From positions 558,001 to 622,000 of the forward strand of contig NZ_CP016382.1 of assembly GCF_002813635.1 (NCBI RefSeq): a DNA stretch of 64,000 nt, written 5' to 3'. A program made the translations under genes and the position numbers. Of the stretch, positions 6,354 through 29,234 are shown in pieces; position 1 is the first letter of the stretch; every line of letters begins with the position of its first letter. Below the pieces are notes generated by a model. The model was not told the DNA's origin, searched no databases, and saw only the letters and a list, made by a program, of their open reading frames with translations. This DNA comes from Spiribacter roseus (GTDB lineage: Bacteria; Pseudomonadota; Gammaproteobacteria; Nitrococcales; Nitrococcaceae).

Positions 6354-6641
6354 CTAATGATTCGCGACGCGATATTGATGTTCCTCGAGCGCCGCGACGA
6401 GCCTCGGGTTGAATCGAACAGGCTTGTCCAGCGCCTGAAAGAATTCATTGGCATTCTGGGCGGCTAGCTGCATGGTCTCATGTTCATGGATCTTCTCTTC
6501 GGCGTGCGTGATCGCGCTGGCTAGGATGAAGCTGCTCACGGTCTTGCCTTCAAAGCTCGCGGCACGCTCCAGCATTGCTTTGGCCTGAGGCTGTAGCCTG
6601 AGGTTAATTCGCTCCTGCTTTTTGTCCGTGTTTGCACTCAT
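6354..6641 (-). CDS. DUF1778 antitoxin
   Basis: A 95-residue ribbon-helix-helix antitoxin placed directly upstream of its GNAT toxin. The DNA-binding segment RINLRLQPQAKAMLERAA is near residues 9-26, and the toxin-binding tail ends FFQALDKPVRFNPRLVAAL, typical of DUF1778. I chose the ATG at 6641; in-frame ATGs upstream would add up to 8 residues. A GGAG lies 9 bases before it. These antitoxins normally repress their own promoter together with the toxin. Confidence 0.88.
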   Translation of the reverse strand: MSANTDKKQERINLRLQPQAKAMLERAASFEGKTVSSFILASAITHAEEKIHEHETMQLAAQNANEFFQALDKPVRFNPRLVAALEEHQYRVANH

Positions 6642-6673
6642 GCGATCGGTCTCCATGAAGAACATGGTCTATA

Positions 6674-6681
6674 ACGTACGT
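6674..6681. promoter_or_regulatory. Candidate operator of the toxin-antitoxin promoter
   Basis: A perfect 8-base palindrome ACGTACGT lies about 33 bases before the antitoxin ATG, next to a TATA-rich hexamer (TTATAG on the minus strand). Ribbon-helix-helix antitoxins bind short palindromes of this kind. There is only one copy and no tested consensus, so the call is weak. Confidence 0.35.
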
Positions 6682-6688
6682 CAAAAAG

Positions 6689-7729
6689 GTGCCTGCGCCA
6701 AGGAGGCTGGCGCTGCTGTTGGGCATGGCGGTGATCACCGCCTGTTCGCTTGGAATGGAGGACCACATGCCGCATGCAGAGATGGGCCCGGAGGGCCGGT
6801 TCGTCACGCTGCCGCAAGGGCGGGTCCACGCCATTGTGAAGGGCGAGGGCCTGGACCTGGTGATGATCCACGGCGCGAGCAGCAACGCGCGGGATTTCAG
6901 CTTTGATCTGATCGACCGGATGGCTGATGAATTCCGGGTGATCGCCTTTGACCGGCCGGGGTTCGGCTATTCGGACAGCCTCGGCGAGCCGCTCAGCCCA
7001 ATGGAGCAGGCCGAGATCCTGCGCCGAGCGGCCGGGCAGCTCGGGGTTGATCAGCCCATTGTGCTCGGGCATTCCTACGGCGGCGCCGTGGCCCTTGCCT
7101 GGGCGTTGCGCGCCGGTGATGACGTGGCGGGTCTGACGCTGCTCGCGCCGGCTTCTCACCCATGGCCCGGAGGGCTTGGGTTCTGGCGTCAGCTCTCCGC
7201 CTCACCCCTCGGACAGCATATTGTCCTGCCGACGATCTCGCACATCGCGCCCCGGCAGCTGGTGAATGCCTCGGTTGAGCGTGTCTTCCAGCCCAATGAG
7301 GTGCCCGACGGGTATCTGGATCATCTTGGGCTCGAGCTCACGCTCAGGACCCGCCAGATGCAGATCAATGCACTTCAGATCGACCAGCTCGAGGGTTATC
7401 TTGAGGCAATGGTCCCGGAGTATCCCGACCTGAGCATTCCCATTGAGGTGGTGCATGGACGGGCCGATCGAACCGTCGGCCTCCAATACCACGCCGAGCG
7501 CCTTGCCGCGGCCGTCGATAGCGTCAACCTCACCCGTGTCGAGGGGATGGGTCATATGCCCCACCACGCCGATCCCGAACGGGTCGCCGACGCCATCCGC
7601 CGCACGGCCGAGCGATCCTCTCTAGCGGAGGACCAGGAGGACCTCGCCGCTTTTAAGGACCGGGTCGCCGAACCGACCATGTCCTATGAAGCCCTTCTGG
7701 ATGACTTGCGGGCCCATGGGAAGATATAA
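6689..7729 (+). CDS. Alpha/beta hydrolase lipoprotein with antitoxin-like tail
   Basis: Alpha/beta-fold hydrolase of 346 residues. The N-terminus is a lipoprotein signal with lipobox ITAC (Cys19). The oxyanion HGASS, the nucleophile elbow GHSYGG (Ser at about 130), the acid in HGRAD and the base in GMGHMPHH make a complete catalytic set for a small-ester or lactone hydrolase. The last 35 residues are unlike a hydrolase: EDLAAFKDRVAEPTMSYEAL and then LRAHGKI look like the C-terminal tail of a Phd/RelB-type antitoxin. The GTG start at 6689 keeps the signal peptide complete, and the frame is closed just upstream. Substrate unknown. Confidence 0.75.
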   Translation: MPAPRRLALLLGMAVITACSLGMEDHMPHAEMGPEGRFVTLPQGRVHAIVKGEGLDLVMIHGASSNARDFSFDLIDRMADEFRVIAFDRPGFGYSDSLGEPLSPMEQAEILRRAAGQLGVDQPIVLGHSYGGAVALAWALRAGDDVAGLTLLAPASHPWPGGLGFWRQLSASPLGQHIVLPTISHIAPRQLVNASVERVFQPNEVPDGYLDHLGLELTLRTRQMQINALQIDQLEGYLEAMVPEYPDLSIPIEVVHGRADRTVGLQYHAERLAAAVDSVNLTRVEGMGHMPHHADPERVADAIRRTAERSSLAEDQEDLAAFKDRVAEPTMSYEALLDDLRAHGKI

Positions 7730-22166: not shown

Positions 22167-23360
22167 TCAATTCCTGATCCTCCAGGTCACCCAAAGGCCG
22201 AGCAGGCAGAAAAGCGCGAACACCCACCCCGAGACGGCGGCAGCCATGATGCCCGAGAGCAGCGTGCCGACGGTGCAGCCAAGCGCGGTCATGGCCCCCC
22301 AGCCCATGAGGACGCCGCCGGCAAGACTGCCTGCAGCCTTACCGACCGTCACCCGCTGCGGGCGAAAGTCGCCGGCCGCGAGCGCCGACGCCAGAGAGGC
22401 AAGGATCAAACCGATGATGAAGGCACCATTCTCTGACAGGAGGACGTTCTTGACCGCGGTCGCGCAGCCGGAGAAGCCATCGAGTCCCTGCAATCGATCG
22501 GGTAGCACTCCGAGGCCGTTACCGGCCGTGCGCGCCAGACTGCCAAGCTCGGCGGTGACGCCCAATGGCGCGACTCGCAGGTAGGCCATCACGGCAAGCG
22601 CGCCGATCAACAGACCGCCCACATATGTGGGCCAGCGCTGCCCTATCAGTCGCCCGCGAAAGCTGGCTGGCGCTGCCCCTTTGGCAGGACCCGCCGGTCG
22701 ATGCCAGCGCATGAGCGCGAGGGCCAGCAGGCCGAGCCCGCCGAGCTGTATCAGAATCGATCCGCCATAGCCCGCGAGGTCGGGCAGCCAGATGACCGGT
22801 GCCTGATCGATACCCGCCAGATAAAGCGTGTTCCACGTGGCAAAGCCAAGCCCGAATCCGATCAGCACACCGCCGAGCGCAGCCACCGACCCGATGGCGC
22901 CTTCGCCCAGCCGATACAGGTGGGCACTGATGCAGGAACCCGACAGGGTCATACCGCTGCCGAAGGTGAACGCTGCCAGGGCGAGTACCCAGCTTACGGG
23001 CCCGATATGCGCATCGGGCGGGAGGCGTCCACCCGCGGGGTCGGGGACAAACAGGCCAAAGATCAGGTGATAGCCGAGTGTGCCCACCGCCAAGGCGGCA
23101 AGAATACCCAGCAGTCCGCGGGCGTCGCGATGGTCCAGAAAGTCCCGGGTCACGCAGAAAAAGCAGAATCGGGCGCGTTGGAGGAGTACACCGAATGTCG
23201 CGCCGAGCAGCAGACTGAGCGCCAGCGGATCGCCATTGCTCACGCTGAGCTGCCAGGACCCGGCGATGAGCCCGGCGGCTATGAGCGTAGGCAGCACCGT
23301 AGAGAACAGGAGGCGCCGGCGTAAGGCCGGCGCTGTATCCGTGGCAGTGATGTTCTCCAT
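22167..23360 (-). CDS. YeeE/YedE sulfur-compound transporter
   Basis: A 397-residue polytopic membrane protein of the YeeE/YedE family (TsuA-like), which moves thiosulfate or other reduced sulfur species. It shows the family repeats around conserved cysteines: RARFCFFCVTRDF (about residue 63), FGSGMTLSGSCISAHLYRLGEG, GLDGFSGCATA, and ALGCTVGTLLSGIMA. It is 14 bases downstream of the secreted rhodanese gene, so the two form an operon: the rhodanese can act on thiosulfate in the periplasm and the permease can carry sulfur inward. This functional link is inference. Confidence 0.87.
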   Translation of the reverse strand: MENITATDTAPALRRRLLFSTVLPTLIAAGLIAGSWQLSVSNGDPLALSLLLGATFGVLLQRARFCFFCVTRDFLDHRDARGLLGILAALAVGTLGYHLIFGLFVPDPAGGRLPPDAHIGPVSWVLALAAFTFGSGMTLSGSCISAHLYRLGEGAIGSVAALGGVLIGFGLGFATWNTLYLAGIDQAPVIWLPDLAGYGGSILIQLGGLGLLALALMRWHRPAGPAKGAAPASFRGRLIGQRWPTYVGGLLIGALAVMAYLRVAPLGVTAELGSLARTAGNGLGVLPDRLQGLDGFSGCATAVKNVLLSENGAFIIGLILASLASALAAGDFRPQRVTVGKAAGSLAGGVLMGWGAMTALGCTVGTLLSGIMAAAVSGWVFALFCLLGLWVTWRIRN

Positions 23361-23374
23361 CTTATGGCCCGGTG

Positions 23375-24310
23375 TTACTGACCACCCCAGACCGTGCCGG
23401 CCAGGTTGGTGACCGGGACGCCCACCGAGTTGCCATACTCGGTCCAGGAGCCATCGTAGTTTTTCACGTCGTAGCCGAGGATCTTCGAGAGCGCGAACCA
23501 GGTGTGGCTCGAACGCTCACCGATGCGGCAGTAGGTGATGACCGGCTTGCTGCCATCAACGCCGGCTTGGGCATAGATCGCGCGCAGTTCGTCGGCTGAC
23601 TTGAAGGTGCCATCCTCGTTGACGGCGTTGCCCCAGCCCACATTGACCGCCCCCGGGATATGCCCGGCGCGCACCGAGAGCTCATCGACGCCGTCCGGGG
23701 CGATGATGCGGCCCTCGTATTCGGCAGCCGAGCGGATATCCACCAGTTGGGTGTTGGCGGCCTCGTTACTCGCGACCTCGACCACTTCCGGCAGGAATGC
23801 ACGGATGGACTCATCGGCCTCGCTCACCTCGATGTCACCCTGTGGGTGGCTTGCCGGGCGCAGGCTCAAGGGGCGGCCCTCGGCCTCCCACTTGTCCCGA
23901 CCGCCATCCAGCAGGCGGACACTGTCGACCCCGTAGATATCAAAGATCCACGCGCCCCAGGCGGCAAACCAGTTGTTGGTGTCGCCGTAGAGAACGATTT
24001 CGTCGTCACCGGAGACGCCGGCATCGCGCAGCAGGGTCTGGAATGATGCCCGGTCAACGATGTCGCGGCGGACCGTGTCGACCAGGTCCGTGTGCCAGCG
24101 GAAATTGACCGCACCCGGAATATGGCCGCGCTCGAACTTGCCCGGATTGACGCTGACCTCGATGACGGTGAGGTCGTCACGATCCAGGTTGTCGGCCAGC
24201 CAGTCGGTGGTCACGAGCGCGTCGGTATTGGGGTTGGCGGCCGCCAGCCCGGTGAAAAGGGCGAAGGCGATGCCCCCGGCGATATGGCGGATGGTTGGGG
24301 TGGAAATCAT
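23375..24310 (-). CDS. Secreted two-domain rhodanese (sulfurtransferase)
   Basis: A 311-residue exported thiosulfate/3-mercaptopyruvate-type sulfurtransferase. The signal peptide ends near GLAAANP. The first rhodanese domain (about residues 30-150) has Asp in place of the catalytic Cys (LYGDTNNW). The second (about 180-300) holds the active Cys in ITYCRIGERSSHTW. Both CDEF-like patterns (GHIPGAVNF and GHIPGAVNVGWGN) are present. It transfers sulfane sulfur to a thiol acceptor. It is first in an operon with the YeeE/YedE permease and is preceded by a palindrome-covered promoter (24381-24412). Confidence 0.9.
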   Translation of the reverse strand: MISTPTIRHIAGGIAFALFTGLAAANPNTDALVTTDWLADNLDRDDLTVIEVSVNPGKFERGHIPGAVNFRWHTDLVDTVRRDIVDRASFQTLLRDAGVSGDDEIVLYGDTNNWFAAWGAWIFDIYGVDSVRLLDGGRDKWEAEGRPLSLRPASHPQGDIEVSEADESIRAFLPEVVEVASNEAANTQLVDIRSAAEYEGRIIAPDGVDELSVRAGHIPGAVNVGWGNAVNEDGTFKSADELRAIYAQAGVDGSKPVITYCRIGERSSHTWFALSKILGYDVKNYDGSWTEYGNSVGVPVTNLAGTVWGGQ

Positions 24311-24380
24311 GTCAAGCCTCCGATGAATTGTCGCTGCGGATTATCGGAGTCTAGACAGCGCCTCTTAAAACTGGAAAGAA

Positions 24381-24412
24381 TTTATAGAGATACGTTAATG
24401 CTGATTAAGTAT
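24381..24412 (-). promoter_or_regulatory. Promoter and candidate operator of the sulfur operon
   Basis: On the minus strand a TATAAA hexamer (24386-24381) is preceded at 16 bases by TTAATC (24408-24403). Over the -35 and spacer lies an interrupted inverted repeat, ATACGTTAA (24390-24398) and TTAAGTAT (24405-24412), whose arms differ by one inserted base. This is where a repressor would sit, for example an ArsR-family persulfide sensor. No regulator gene is next to it. Confidence 0.45.
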
Positions 24413-24422
24413 ATAAGACGAC

Positions 24423-24689
24423 TCAGCGTAGCTGACTGTCTTTGCTGCCACGGCGGTTATAGGCCGATGGGTGGGTGCGGGCCTGATCGTGGGCTTGCTG
24501 GCACTCTACGCACAGGCGCACGCCGGGCAGCGCCTTGCGACGGCCCTCGGGGATGACGCTGTCGCAGTCCTCGCAGTGGGTCAGGCTCTCGCCGTGGGGC
24601 AGGGCGTCCTGGGCGCGCCGGACTGCGTCGTTGACGGCCCCCTCGATCTCGTCCTGTGCGGCGTCTTCGCTGCCAAATCCTTTCGCCAT
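24423..24689 (-). CDS. DksA/TraR-type zinc finger protein
   Basis: An 88-residue protein of the short DksA/TraR (YbiI-like) family. The zinc site is C-x2-C-x17-C-x2-C (HCEDCDSVIPEGRRKALPG, then LCVEC). These proteins bind the RNA polymerase secondary channel or act in unknown ways. A TATAAT hexamer ends six bases before the ATG and there is no ribosome binding site, so the mRNA may be leaderless. It is upstream of the rhodanese gene but separated from it by that gene's own promoter. Confidence 0.85.
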   Translation of the reverse strand: MAKGFGSEDAAQDEIEGAVNDAVRRAQDALPHGESLTHCEDCDSVIPEGRRKALPGVRLCVECQQAHDQARTHPSAYNRRGSKDSQLR

Positions 24690-24787
24690 GGGGCAATTAT
24701 ATCAAGCCCTCGCACGCGGTGGGTGGTGGGCGCCACGCTTTGGGAGACTGATAGACTCAGTCCCTCGTCAAAAGGAGAGGTCCAGTC

Positions 24788-25678
24788 GTGCAGCCCATCG
24801 TTCGATCGGTTTTTCATGCGCCCAGCCATACCTTTTCGTACGTGGTCTGGGACGCGGCAACCCGCCGGGCGGCGATCATCGACCCTGTGCTCGATTACGA
24901 TCCGCACTCGGGCCGCAGCGGCACGCAGACCGCCGAGCAGCTCATCGCAGTGGTCGAGGCCGAAGGGTTGCGCGTGGACTGGCTGCTCGAGACCCACGCC
25001 CATGCCGATCACATGAGTGCGCTCGCCTTTCTTAAAGCCCGCTTTGACGCCCCCACCGCCATCGGCGAGCGCATTACCGAGGTGCAGGCCCGCTTTGCCC
25101 GGCTCTTCAATCTGGGTGAGGATTTTGCAACCGACGGCCGACAGTTCGATCATTGCTTTGCCGACGAGGAGACTTTTGCGCTGGGCGATCTCCCTGCGCA
25201 GGTCTTCCATACGCCCGGGCACACCAGCGATCACATTACCTATGTGATCGGGGACGCCGTGTTTGTTGGCGATACGCTTTTCATGCCCGATGCCGGGACA
25301 GCGCGTTGCGACTTCCCGGCCGGCTCGGCGCGGGACCTGTATCGCTCGATCCACCGTCTGTTTGCCGCGCTCGATGATGACCAGCGCGTGTTTCTGCTCC
25401 ATGACTACGGCACCGACACCCGCGAGCCGGCTTGCCAGACCACTATTGGCGAGCAGCGCCAGGCGAATATCCATGTGGCGGAAGGCGTTAGCGAGGATGA
25501 CTATGTGGCGATGCGCGAGGCCCGGGACGCCACACTGCCCATGCCCGTGCTGATCCTGCCGGCGGTGCAGGTCAATATCCGCGCCGGGCATTTCCCGCCG
25601 GCGGAATCCAATGGGCTGCGCTATCTCAAGATCCCGCTGGATGAGTTCGGCGCCCACTGGCAACCGCGCGAACACTGA
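24788..25678 (+). CDS. MBL-fold persulfide dioxygenase-like enzyme
   Basis: A 296-residue metallo-beta-lactamase-fold protein of the ETHE1/Blh group. The metal motif is THAHADHMSA (about residues 70-79), with later ligands in HTPGHTSDH, GDTLFMPDAGTARCDFPAG and LLHDYG. The ARCDFPAG block fits glutathione persulfide dioxygenases, which oxidise sulfane sulfur to sulfite with a single iron. The GTG at 24788 follows AGGAGAGG. It is divergent from the rhodanese/YeeE operon, giving a compact sulfur-oxidation locus. A hydroxyacylglutathione hydrolase is unlikely because of the motif spacing. Confidence 0.85.
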   Translation: MQPIVRSVFHAPSHTFSYVVWDAATRRAAIIDPVLDYDPHSGRSGTQTAEQLIAVVEAEGLRVDWLLETHAHADHMSALAFLKARFDAPTAIGERITEVQARFARLFNLGEDFATDGRQFDHCFADEETFALGDLPAQVFHTPGHTSDHITYVIGDAVFVGDTLFMPDAGTARCDFPAGSARDLYRSIHRLFAALDDDQRVFLLHDYGTDTREPACQTTIGEQRQANIHVAEGVSEDDYVAMREARDATLPMPVLILPAVQVNIRAGHFPPAESNGLRYLKIPLDEFGAHWQPREH

Positions 25679-25704: not shown

Positions 25705-26622
25705 ATGACGACCGTTCAGGGCCTGCACCACATCACCGCCGTCGCCGCGGATCCGCAGCGCAACGCTGATTTTTACACGCGGGTCCTGGGGCTTCGCCTG
25801 GTCAAAAAGACCGTCAATCAGGACGATCCGTCCAGCTATCACCTCTACTACGGGGATGATCGCGGCCGTCCCGGCACGGCGATGACGTTCTTCCCGTTTC
25901 CGGGAGTGCCGGCGGGCCAAGCGGGCCGCGGTCAGCCCCTCGAGACGCGTTTTTCGGTGCCGGCTGATGCCATTGCCGCCTGGCAGTCACAGCTCGCCGA
26001 CGCCGGTATCACGGTCACGCCGGGTCATACCGATGTCCCGATGCTGCAGTTTCACGATCCCGATGGTCTGCCGCTGGCGCTGATCGGTGATGCTCCCTCG
26101 TCCATCGCCGCTGACACGCGCGGCGAAACCGCCATTCGAGGGTTTTCGGGCATGAGTCTTGCCAGTCACCGGCCGGTCGCCACTGCGCGAGTGCTGACCG
26201 GGCTGCTGGATTATGTCGAGTCGGGCGCCGGCGTGGGCGGCACGCGGTTTGTCAGCGTTGACGCGCCGCTCGCCCGACACATCGACCTGGTGGAGGACGT
26301 TGCACCGGGGCAGGCGGGCTACGGCACCGTCCATCATGTCGCGTTCCGGGTCGCGGATCGTCCGGCGCTGCTCGAGCGGCTCGAGCGCATCCGCGCCTGG
26401 CAGCTGCCGTGTTCCGGTGAGGTCGATCGGTATTATTTCCGCTCGGTGTACTTTCGCGAACCCGGTGGCATGCTGTTTGAGATTGCCACGGATGATCCGG
26501 GGTTTGACGTGGATGAGCCGGTGGAATCACTGGGCAGTGACCTCAAGCTACCGCCGGCGCATGAGCCGATGCGCGCCACCATCGAGGCGCAGTTGCCAGC
26601 GCTTGTAAGTCGGCCCCTGTGA
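25705..26622 (+). CDS. Ring-cleaving dioxygenase-like VOC protein
   Basis: A 305-residue protein with two vicinal-oxygen-chelate (glyoxalase/bleomycin resistance) modules, similar to the MhqO/MhqA-like ring-cleaving dioxygenase family. Metal-ligand patterns occur as GLHHITAVA near residue 6, TVHHVAFRV near 210, and the GGMLFEIATDDPGF block (about 255-268) at the second module. These enzymes act on hydroquinone-type substrates; the true substrate is unknown. It starts 26 bases after the persulfide dioxygenase gene and shares GTGA with the next gene, so the group is probably cotranscribed. Confidence 0.82.
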   Translation: MTTVQGLHHITAVAADPQRNADFYTRVLGLRLVKKTVNQDDPSSYHLYYGDDRGRPGTAMTFFPFPGVPAGQAGRGQPLETRFSVPADAIAAWQSQLADAGITVTPGHTDVPMLQFHDPDGLPLALIGDAPSSIAADTRGETAIRGFSGMSLASHRPVATARVLTGLLDYVESGAGVGGTRFVSVDAPLARHIDLVEDVAPGQAGYGTVHHVAFRVADRPALLERLERIRAWQLPCSGEVDRYYFRSVYFREPGGMLFEIATDDPGFDVDEPVESLGSDLKLPPAHEPMRATIEAQLPALVSRPL

Positions 26623-27623
26623 CAACCTTCAAGGTCGGTGAAAAGGACCGCGATGGGCGGCAGAAGCGCATTGACTACTCAGGCCGCTACCTGCGGGCGA
26701 GCCGCACCGGTGGGGTGGCGCTGCGCGCCCATGTCAAGGCCGCCGGCATCAACCTGACCGGCAACACCAGCCATGGCTTTCGTGTCTCCACCCGGTTGGC
26801 GAAGAACACCCAGGTCGCCATGCAGAACGGCCGGTTCGTGCTCCGGGGTCGCTACGGATCCGATATCGCCAAGGTGAACCTCTCGAAAAGCGGCGTGAGC
26901 GTTTCGAGCAAGGTGGGGCTCGGCACCATCAACTGGCTGCGCCCGGGCGCCTCGTCGGCAAAGTTCGCCGGCGTGCAGTTCCGTGGTCAGAAAGCGGCGG
27001 CCGCCAATGCAATCTATCTGACGCTGATGGGGTTGGCGCGCCTGACCGGGGCGCTTTTCCGGCTCGCGGGGTGGAGCGTGCGGTTGCTGGCCGGTGCCCT
27101 GCAATGGGCCGTCGGGCGCTGGCAGCAGGCCCGCCAGGCCCGGGAGCGCATTGCCGTGGATACCGACACCGCGGCAGCCGCCGGCGAGGCCGTGCTCGGG
27201 GCACATGGCATCGTCCCATCCGCCGAACCGGTCCGCGATCTGTTCGCCGCACTCGTTTACCTGACCGCCGTCATGGGGCGGGGCGATCGGGCGCTTGATG
27301 CGGCAATTGTTGACGCCCATGTCCCCGACAACCCGTTCACCGCGGTGCTGGTGACGGATGTCAATGCGGCGGGTGGGGTCCTCGAGGAGGCCCTCGCGGA
27401 TCGCCCGGCCGCCGAAGACCCCGCGGCGATCCTCGGCGTGATCCACCATCTGGCGGGTGCTTTCGCCGCGCGCGTCGATGAGGCCCTCCGCACCGAGGCG
27501 GTGTTCGCCATCGATGACGCCTGCCTGGCCCTGGGGCCGCGCACCATCCTGCAGGATGCGCTGCTCGACCGGCTGGTGGAATCCCTCGGTGTCGAACTCC
27601 AGTTGATCGGAGAGCGGGAATGA
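26619..27623 (+). CDS. Uncharacterised membrane-associated protein paired with DUF3320 gene
   Basis: I do not recognise this 334-residue protein. The first 120 residues are basic and beta-like, with many Ser, Gly and Val (VNLSKSGVSVSSKVGLGTINW at about 86-106, split around Val-Ser-Ser). A hydrophobic or amphipathic region at about 127-168 could be one or two membrane segments. The remaining 165 residues are helical and acidic. The GTG start overlaps the previous stop by 4 bases and its own stop overlaps the following ATG by 4 bases, so the product is made together with the DUF3320-like protein. Confidence 0.65.
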   Translation: MTTFKVGEKDRDGRQKRIDYSGRYLRASRTGGVALRAHVKAAGINLTGNTSHGFRVSTRLAKNTQVAMQNGRFVLRGRYGSDIAKVNLSKSGVSVSSKVGLGTINWLRPGASSAKFAGVQFRGQKAAAANAIYLTLMGLARLTGALFRLAGWSVRLLAGALQWAVGRWQQARQARERIAVDTDTAAAAGEAVLGAHGIVPSAEPVRDLFAALVYLTAVMGRGDRALDAAIVDAHVPDNPFTAVLVTDVNAAGGVLEEALADRPAAEDPAAILGVIHHLAGAFAARVDEALRTEAVFAIDDACLALGPRTILQDALLDRLVESLGVELQLIGERE

Positions 27624-28348
27624 CCGACGACCTCGGCGGCTTTGAGGCGGCGGTTCGCCTCCATGAGCAGCTCCTGAGACGACCCGACCCGGAGGCCGCT
27701 GCGGCGCAGCTGTGCCCCGGCCGGCTCGATCCGCCAACCCGGTGGACAGCCGATCTTCATCCGATACGCGCCTATCAGGCGATCGACCCGACCCGGCTGT
27801 CGCTGGCGGGGTATGACGACTTTCATGCCATTCCGGACGCGTCCCTTGACGCGGCAATCGGAGGGGTTGTCGACGCCGAGGGGCCGGTGCATTTCGATAC
27901 CCTGGCCGACCGCCTGCTGGCGGCCGCCGACGTGGGCCGGCTCGGCTCGCGCATCCGCGAGCGGATCGAGGCACGCCTCCAGGCCCTGTCGGCAACCCCC
28001 GATCTAAGCCAGCGGGGCGGGTTCGTCGCCCGTCCCGCGCAGTTTCTCAAGCCGCCCTATCGCGACTGGCGTGAGGCGCCGGAGAAAACCCGGCGGCTGG
28101 AAGCCGTCAGTGATGAGGAGCTCATGCTCGCGCTCTTCCGCGCGGTACTCGACGGCAACGCCAACGATGCTGAGACCGCGATGAATGCGGGCATCCACGC
28201 CATCGGATTCACGCGGCTGACGGACAACGCGCGCGATCGGCTACAGGGACCACTGGCGGCCCTGCTCGATGGGGGAATACTGGAGGCGGTGGGTGACGGG
28301 CTTCGGGTGGCAACGTTACCCTGTCCAGTCGATGACACACGATCATAG
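27620..28348 (+). CDS. Free-standing DUF3320-like protein
   Basis: A 242-residue protein. From residue 64 (GYDDFHAIPDASLDAAI) it follows the DUF3320 pattern: EGPVHFDTLADRLLAAADVGRLGSR (87-111), GGFVARPAQF (133-142), and the closing GIHAIGFTRL...LLDGGILE. In known proteins DUF3320 sits at the C-terminus of very large AAA+ helicase/nuclease proteins; here there is no helicase. The ATG overlaps the previous stop by 4 bases. The last 17 bases overlap the start of the CDF gene. Function unknown; a nucleic-acid-binding winged-helix-like role is a guess. Confidence 0.65.
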   Translation: MTDDLGGFEAAVRLHEQLLRRPDPEAAAAQLCPGRLDPPTRWTADLHPIRAYQAIDPTRLSLAGYDDFHAIPDASLDAAIGGVVDAEGPVHFDTLADRLLAAADVGRLGSRIRERIEARLQALSATPDLSQRGGFVARPAQFLKPPYRDWREAPEKTRRLEAVSDEELMLALFRAVLDGNANDAETAMNAGIHAIGFTRLTDNARDRLQGPLAALLDGGILEAVGDGLRVATLPCPVDDTRS

Positions 28349-29234
28349 CCACGACCATAGCGCGCATTTCGCTGCCCATAACCGCTCATTCGCCATCGCC
28401 GTGGTGCTCAATACGCTGTTCGTGGTGATTGAGGCGGTTTACGGCGTGATGGCGGGGTCGCTCGCGCTCATCGCCGATGCCGGTCATAACCTCAGTGATG
28501 TCCTGGGGCTCATCATGGCCTGGGCGGCCAGCTGGATGGCGGGCAGGGCCGCCACCGACGCCCGGACCTATGGCCTGAAAAAGACCACGATTCTGGCGGC
28601 GCTGTTCAATGCGCTGATCCTCATCGCCGCGGTCGGCGGGATCACCTGGGAGGCCGTCCGAAGGCTGGCTGATCCGGCTGATGTCGCCGGTCTCACCGTG
28701 ATCGGCGTGGCGGCGATCGGGGTAGTGATCAACGCGATCACCATGCTGCTGTTCCTCAAGGGCCAGCGGGGCGACATCAATATCCGCGGGGCGTTTCTGC
28801 ACATGGCCGCCGATACGGCGGTATCGGTTGGTGTCGTGGTCTCCGGCACGATGCTGGTGCTGACCGGGCTCGCCTGGATCGACCCCGTGGTGAGCCTTGT
28901 CATTGCGGCGGTGATCTTCATCGGCACCTGGCAGCTGCTCAAGGATTCGCTGGCGCTCGCCACCGACGCCGTGCCCCGGGGCATTGATCCAGCCGCGGTG
29001 CGGGCCCGTCTTGAGGCGCTGCCCGGTGTGAGCTCCGCCCATCATTTGCACATCTGGGCGCTGAGCACGACCGAGAACGCGCTGACCGTCCATCTCGTCA
29101 AACCCGATCCCGAGGGCGACGACAGCCTCATCAGCGAGGCTTCAGCCATGCTGGCCGAGGACTTCAATATCCAGCACACCACCATCCAGTACGAGCGGGA
29201 CCATCAACAGTGTCCGACCGGTGGCGGTTGTTGA
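28332..29234 (+). CDS. Cation diffusion facilitator (Zn/Co/Cd efflux)
   Basis: A 300-residue CDF transporter of the CzcD/ZitB type. It begins with a His-rich stretch (MTHDHSHDHSAHFAAHN), has six hydrophobic segments, and shows the transport-site motifs HNLSD in helix II (Asp, His) and HMAADT in helix V. The C-terminal ferredoxin-like domain (from about residue 205) ends with QHTTIQYERDHQQC. It exports divalent metal ions using the proton gradient. I chose the ATG at 28332; a longer frame starts inside the preceding gene. Overlap with that gene suggests cotranscription. Confidence 0.9.
   Translation: MTHDHSHDHSAHFAAHNRSFAIAVVLNTLFVVIEAVYGVMAGSLALIADAGHNLSDVLGLIMAWAASWMAGRAATDARTYGLKKTTILAALFNALILIAAVGGITWEAVRRLADPADVAGLTVIGVAAIGVVINAITMLLFLKGQRGDINIRGAFLHMAADTAVSVGVVVSGTMLVLTGLAWIDPVVSLVIAAVIFIGTWQLLKDSLALATDAVPRGIDPAAVRARLEALPGVSSAHHLHIWALSTTENALTVHLVKPDPEGDDSLISEASAMLAEDFNIQHTTIQYERDHQQCPTGGGC

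Follow-up and report, generated by a model that had tools for sequence, protein, structure and literature searches.

A free-standing DUF3320 protein and its predicted membrane-associated partner form a two-gene family in gammaproteobacteria

The window analyzed here is a 64,000-nucleotide stretch of the Spiribacter roseus genome (contig NZ_CP016382.1, positions 558,001 to 622,000), and coordinates given without a locus name refer to it. It carries two adjacent genes, P1 and P2, the features of which are collected in Table 1. The initial annotation had described the two reading frames as a coupled pair sharing a 4-bp overlap. The frames and their shared ATGA were confirmed, and a second 4-nt overlap joins the GTG start of P1 to the stop of a glyoxalase-like ORF lying upstream (25705-26622). 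The next gene after the pair encodes a cation-efflux protein (28332-29234). A putative sulfur-handling cluster, named from translations, lies at 22167-25678 and comprises a YeeE-like transporter, rhodanese-like and metallo-beta-lactamase-fold proteins.

Table 1. Coordinates of the P1-P2 features in the window and of related features at other loci (res, residues).
Feature	Coordinates	Strand	Description and basis
P1 gene	26619..27623	+	334 aa, GTG start; ORF; homologues in 18/54 genomes of the order; dN/dS about 0.2
P1 N-domain (res 1-128)	26619..27002	+	Basic; sequence suggests much beta structure; carries NLSKSGVSVS, a DUF4236-related motif
P1 hydrophobic stretch (res about 126-184)	26994..27170	+	Hydropathy; basic flanks on average; one long helix in low-confidence model
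P1 acidic all-helical C-domain, weakly TerB-like	27171..27620	+	Model helices, block pLDDT 25-79; hhalign to TerB profile
P2 gene	27620..28348	+	242 aa, ATG start; free-standing DUF3320 protein
ATGA overlap, P1 stop / P2 start	27620..27623	+	Sequence; 4 nt in 17/20 pairs
DUF3320 match, predicted first winged helix (P2 res 66-114)	27815..27961	+	PF11784; model helices 73-87, 92-103, 110-124; wHTH assignment in the accessible part of a published source
Second winged helix, modeled (P2 res 163-232)	28106..28315	+	Model helices 165-178, 184-194, 202-217; strands 221-224, 227-230
SRAP / small hydrophobic / P1-HhH cassette	L093 6217-8788; L094 1361-4012; L120 7801-10559		
About-160-aa Spiribacter family	L057 3948-4262; L058 6508-6921; L059 5341-5814; L064 3396-3869		

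The assignment of P2 as a free-standing DUF3320 protein was upheld by profile search, PF11784 (DUF3320) aligning over its full 50 positions at E 2.2e-12, with a score of 47.2 bits that clears the cut-off of 25. In agreement with the view that DUF3320 is the C-terminal part of giant proteins, P2 residues 56-228 matched the extreme C-terminus of PADLOC PDC-S37 (86 bits, model positions 1378-1544 of 1550), and NCBIfam antiphage_ProA was matched at positions 1753-1903 of 1903 with 52 bits, the whole-protein cut-off being 1500. P2 does not qualify as a full-length helicase-nuclease giant, since it aligns with just the last ~150-170 residues of such proteins (PDC-S37 and antiphage_ProA). Unlike them, it has no helicase or nuclease part and possesses its own N-terminus and a partner, P1.

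The structure model of P2 (pLDDT 61) showed two three-helix units, the second of which bears a strand hairpin. When this model was compared with PDB structures, the best rows were winged-helix domains over residues about 155-236. The top row gave a Z of 7.9 (rmsd 2.6, 66 aligned), and a Z under 8 may reflect a common arrangement, though most of the listed rows share one fold type. As modeled, the second unit is clearly a winged helix. The first unit was called a wHTH on the basis of its helix pattern and of a published DUF3320 assignment: in the accessible part of the source, the region of MTES_1575 overlapping DUF3320 is assigned to two wHTH domains (PMC3710099).

Judged by profile comparisons, P1 is a member of no known family. 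No Pfam or NCBIfam family was found above its cut-off, and DpdH (E 0.031) was the sole PADLOC match. The initial annotation had called this protein unlike anything recognizable, which was nearly right, apart from two weak resemblances, one to DUF4236 in a short motif and one to TerB. DUF4236 was matched at E<=1 by 8 of 17 P1 members (best E 0.0093), the likeness being confined to a short LNLSKSG-S-S motif at P1 residues about 83-105. The profile comparison scored 23.7 over 23 aligned columns (P 0.00086), a score reached by none of 100 column shuffles. In contrast to DUF4236 proteins, P1 lies below the Pfam cut-off (PF14020, 11 bits vs 27), its N-domain is longer and its C-terminus is different.

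The basic N-terminus and hydrophobic center attributed to this protein were both observed. Over 31 P1 rows, the N-domain had a mean net charge of +20.9 (range +16 to +26) and a mean pairwise identity of 72%, vs 32% for the C-domain (residues 185-328), the net charge of which ranged from -18 to -2. The maximum 19-residue hydropathy of the hydrophobic stretch varied from 1.25 to 2.87 across copies and was modest in the window (1.31). This stretch is a probable membrane hairpin or set of in-plane helices, and hydropathy is the ground on which P1 is predicted to associate with the membrane. The residues before it were basic in all 31 rows (+4 to +6) and those after it had a mean charge of +2.3 (range -2 to +10). 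Such basic flanks on both sides favor a cytoplasmic location for both P1 ends.

The P1 C-domain aligned in register with the C-terminal half of a TerB profile built from the order's genomes. The hhalign score was 24.4 (P 0.0023, 0/100 shuffles), compared with 19.4 for the best of 17 unrelated families, but the probability was only 12.7%, and the Pfam families listed at E<=1 for 17 P1 members, also 17 in number, did not include TerB (PF05099). We regard this sequence likeness as a lead. PG1108 (2h5n), which we take to be TerB-like, was rejected as TerB evidence because adjacent unrelated rows of the VIA comparison scored equally (Z 3.8, rmsd 4.8, 98 aligned). The P1 structure model was poor (pLDDT 44), so membrane topology and domain folds remain predictions. 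The mixed helical or coiled proteins that it returned in Foldseek and VIA were also rejected. Neither the P1 nor the P2 model had a Foldseek match at E<=0.001, and PDB sequence searches with each protein separately returned nothing meaningful. The Pfam, NCBIfam and PADLOC searches revealed no nuclease or ATPase domain in P1 or P2, and hence no evident effector.

We have then analyzed how tightly the two genes are associated. Besides the pairs with the 4-nt overlap, the set examined held two with 8 nt and one frame-shifted pair. Both genes are under purifying selection: dN/dS between the window and four congeners was 0.18-0.23 for P1 and 0.15-0.23 for P2, and all 14 comparisons fell between 0.15 and 0.26. 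The P1 and P2 distances were correlated in a mirror-tree analysis (r=0.91, 0/2000 permutations). Among the 54 genomes of the order, DUF3320 was matched in 19 and P1 in 18. Sixteen DUF3320 matches passed the cut-off, three of them in long frames (1077-2040 aa), and the remaining 13 short-frame matches all adjoined P1 or a P1 remnant. Spiribacter also holds a second family of about 160 aa with sub-cut-off DUF3320 matches (about 21-23 bits; Table 1).

Beyond the order, a class sample of 369 genomes gave P1 in at least 10 and the P2 profile in at least 9, these counts being lower bounds because in most genomes scoring was limited to the top 4 or 7 candidates. The 9 P2-profile genomes included 3 with P2-size genes beside P1 and 4 with matches in 794-2042-aa frames; in the last two (G180 and G365) the matches lay in short frames that look like a collapsed giant and a giant's tail behind an 1881-aa frame. 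In a phylum sample of 398 genomes, P1 was matched in the genome containing the window, and otherwise by a single doubtful stretch of 39 residues. No match to P1 or P2 was found in plasmids, none to P1 in phages, and no relative of either profile in viral contigs. The module is patchy, with a modest spread in gammaproteobacteria. We found no description of the pair in the accessible portions of the literature searched on DUF3320 and DUF4236, and the available parts of PMC12458937 and PMC10250203 make no mention of DUF3320. P1-P2 is a real two-gene family with no earlier description in that literature. The notion that the two genes are coupled, undescribed and related to nucleic acids was sustained by the profile match, the conserved overlap, the co-inheritance and, as detailed below, the replacement of P2 by a fused domain.

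The scan of 43 loci, 42 of them with P1, gave a total of 43 P1 copies, with contigs L050 and L051, identical to L063 and L062, counted once and L100, a weak 39-residue match, lying outside the scan. P2 followed in 21 copies (one interrupted, one frame-shifted and one cut by a contig end), a C-terminal helix-hairpin-helix (HhH) was fused to P1 in 13, and no copy had both. One full-length P1 had neither partner (L095, genome G106) and one copy was a deletion remnant fusing both genes (L052). The other seven were undecidable: L070 is truncated, L071, L075 and L119 lie at contig ends, L096 is divergent and short, L098 is a 32-residue remnant and L121 a 23-residue match. The fused domain matched HHH_3 with 49.6 bits against a cut-off of 27 in L073, and HHH_3 was found in 6 of 17 aligned P1 members (best E 5.6e-14).

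In the tree of the 31 P1 rows, the pair copies (18 rows, support 100/100) and the HhH copies (12 rows, support 83/48) formed separate clades with one change each; L075, in which the contig end precedes the HhH, was labeled with the HhH group by its close kin. Repeated exchange between the two forms was rejected on this tree, and the dichotomy, as reconstructed from these sequences, is one ancient switch. The counts of 21, 13 and 0 thus represent one event kept stable and not 34 independent ones. Each clade mixed families (f1, f3 and f110 for the pair; f3, f4, f90, f110 and f162 for the HhH form) and one genome, G009, carried both forms, which points to horizontal transfer.

Several copies were decayed or rearranged. 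An internal deletion joins the P1 start to the P2 end in L052 (7877-8356), L098 keeps a decayed P1 stub (6541-6762), and the truncated P1 of L070 (8280-8879) lies next to a transposase-HTH-led 1832-aa ORF. An insertion interrupts the copy at L053. In the nearest congener (G039), P1 is without its first 25 codons (L060, 8891-9814), and a match to P1 residues 1-36 (L045) is found about 0.9 Mb away, which indicates a rearrangement breakpoint inside P1.

Gene calls in the flanks were made here and are approximate. In G009 the pair shares its strand with two preceding genes, first that of a type I R-like helicase of 1063 aa (SWI2_SNF2, HSDR_N) and then that of an Mrr nuclease of 309 aa, which is separated from P1 by 19 bp. 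The P1-HhH copy of the same genome (L078) is preceded by a 1133-aa Dna2/UPF1-like helicase (best E 1.3e-12), and its neighbor on the other side, a WYL-family regulator, belongs with the WYL/WCX protein of L073 in one family. A 70%-identical homologue of this helicase directly follows a DUF3320 giant in G052. Sites of the helicase family are L056 3299-12723 (after a DUF3320 giant), L078 9624-13025 (beside P1-HhH) and L187 13110-16523, an SRAP island without P1. In genus g208, one locus (L117) encodes HsdM (1201 bits) and HsdS (259 bits) at a distance of about 0.6 kb from P1, another (L115) has PDC-M61A (580 bits) about 5 kb from it, and a BrxHI-like helicase (157 bits) occurs at a third (L112); 5 of 10 flank proteins had no hit in the same scan. 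At E<=1e-10, 66 proteins of the g208 pair flanks matched 159 PADLOC families, and 84 proteins from SRAP islands lacking P1 matched 120. The corresponding value for 77 Spiribacter flank proteins was 42; the 25 families shown were for the most part generic helicase models, and the families listed included no dedicated defence system. In the window's genus, where P1 was matched in 9 of 14 genomes, the pair is flanked by housekeeping genes. The defence-island setting that the initial annotation had proposed to look for was present in G009 and g208 and absent around the pair in the window's genus, and its generalization to all loci was rejected. In G005, a DUF429 gene follows the pair and overlaps P2 by 4 nt (L065 9161-10635).

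Of the 42 loci, 13 have an SRAP gene no farther than 5 kb from P1 (7/7 in g208, 3/3 in g174, 2/5 in g15 and once in Spiribacter, in a rearranged copy). SRAP was matched in 28 of 47 genomes of the g208 order and is therefore itself accessory. Several g208 genomes hold more than one copy, in variable islands with restriction genes (L187-L195). A conserved cassette consists of SRAP, small hydrophobic proteins of 91 and 90 aa without Pfam match, and then P1-HhH with a 4-nt overlap (Table 1).

Kiwa (KwaA-KwaB) offers the nearest functional likeness, being made of two genes, one for a membrane-associated and one for a DNA-binding protein (both predicted here), with no evident nuclease. According to the accessible part of a review, KwaA resides in the inner membrane, KwaB binds injected DNA without cutting it, and the membrane protein brings its DNA-binding partner to the entry site (PMC12904381). 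By analogy, P1-P2 may work somewhat like Kiwa without being Kiwa. No sequence evidence for such an identity was found, and no Kiwa-named family was among the PADLOC hits of P1 or P2 at E<=1. The PADLOC library presumably holds Kiwa models, and we take P2 to have a wHTH in place of the KwaB fold.

We tentatively favor, at somewhat below even probability, P1-P2 being a membrane-associated DNA-capturing complex with an accessory role in defence or DNA stress. P1 and P2 would form one complex on the inner face of the cytoplasmic membrane, with the hydrophobic stretch anchoring P1 and its very basic N-domain and helical C-domain facing the cytoplasm. P2, as a putative tandem winged-helix protein, would bind DNA and be recruited via the C-terminal part of P1, a job that the fused HhH would take over in the sister clade. 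The basic N-domain may add a second point at which DNA or lipid is contacted. The complex would capture DNA near the membrane, and incoming DNA would be sequestered or presented to nearby restriction or helicase-nuclease enzymes. We infer complex formation, membrane location and DNA binding by P2 or HhH from the P2-paired and HhH-fused copies that never coincide, the co-inheritance of P1 and P2, the tandem winged-helix prediction and the conserved basic N-domain. The reading as a whole is weakened by the dichotomy being a single switch, by the G106 copy with neither partner, and by the lack of an evident effector and the poor P1 model. Its structural part is well supported, and the predicted defence role, plausibly antiphage, is favored by the helicase, nuclease, restriction and WYL neighbors in G009 and g208, the patchy cross-family spread and the decayed copies. 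Also against the reading are the Spiribacter flanks and the missing matches on plasmids (P1 and P2) and phages (P1), unusual for a mobile defence system. In a stronger version, the pair and the P1-HhH form would be subtypes of one new antiviral system, in which a basic membrane-associated scaffold captures entering DNA with an exchangeable DNA-binding module and passes it on to, or works jointly with, local restriction and helicase-nuclease enzymes. This version is doubtful.

The same housekeeping surroundings, together with P1 being matched in most of the 14 genomes there, would suit a membrane-tethered regulator of transcription, or a tether for the nucleoid, that serves housekeeping or halo-stress functions and in which P2 would bind host operators and P1 sense the envelope state. 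Tandem wHTH domains are compatible with a regulator, but the patchiness elsewhere (at least 10 of 369 class genomes), the horizontal spread, the helicase and nuclease neighbors and the relatedness of P2 to defence giants make this unlikely. Also against it, the DNA binding of HhH domains is usually not sequence-specific. A quite improbable reading places the complex with SRAP in a DNA-damage module, where it would tether to the membrane DNA that is damaged or single-stranded. It would account for the proximity of the accessory SRAP gene to P1 in g208, g174 and part of g15, but SRAP lies far from the pair in the window's genome, and the g208 SRAP islands with restriction genes and no P1 indicate that SRAP may just mark a defence hotspot.

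The HHH_3-type HhH fused to a probably membrane-associated protein also recalls a DNA-uptake receptor, P1 acting like ComEA, which we take the fused HhH to resemble, and P2 or HhH gripping incoming DNA. In ComEA the HhH is extracytoplasmic and follows an N-terminal signal or anchor; the hydrophobic stretch of P1 is internal, with basic flanks. This reading is very improbable: the basic residues on both sides of the stretch suggest cytoplasmic ends, and the P2 relatives are parts of cytoplasmic helicases. That P2 is a leftover fragment of a giant, incidentally paired with P1, has a parallel in the apparent collapsed giant and frame-shifted giant tail of G180 and G365. It is scarcely credible for a gene under purifying selection, paired with P1 in several families and joined to it by a conserved overlap.

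DUF3320 is familiar as the C-terminal tail of giant antiphage candidates, and here it forms a gene of its own, linked to a protein that is probably membrane-associated. With HhH replacing P2 in the sister clade, the DNA-binding tail is separated from helicase and nuclease, which provides a small system for testing the role of this tail. The module replacement and the helicase and nuclease company make P1-P2 worth testing, while the window's genus gives no defence context. If P1-P2 defends cells, it would be a second architecture in the membrane-plus-DNA-binding class now represented by Kiwa.
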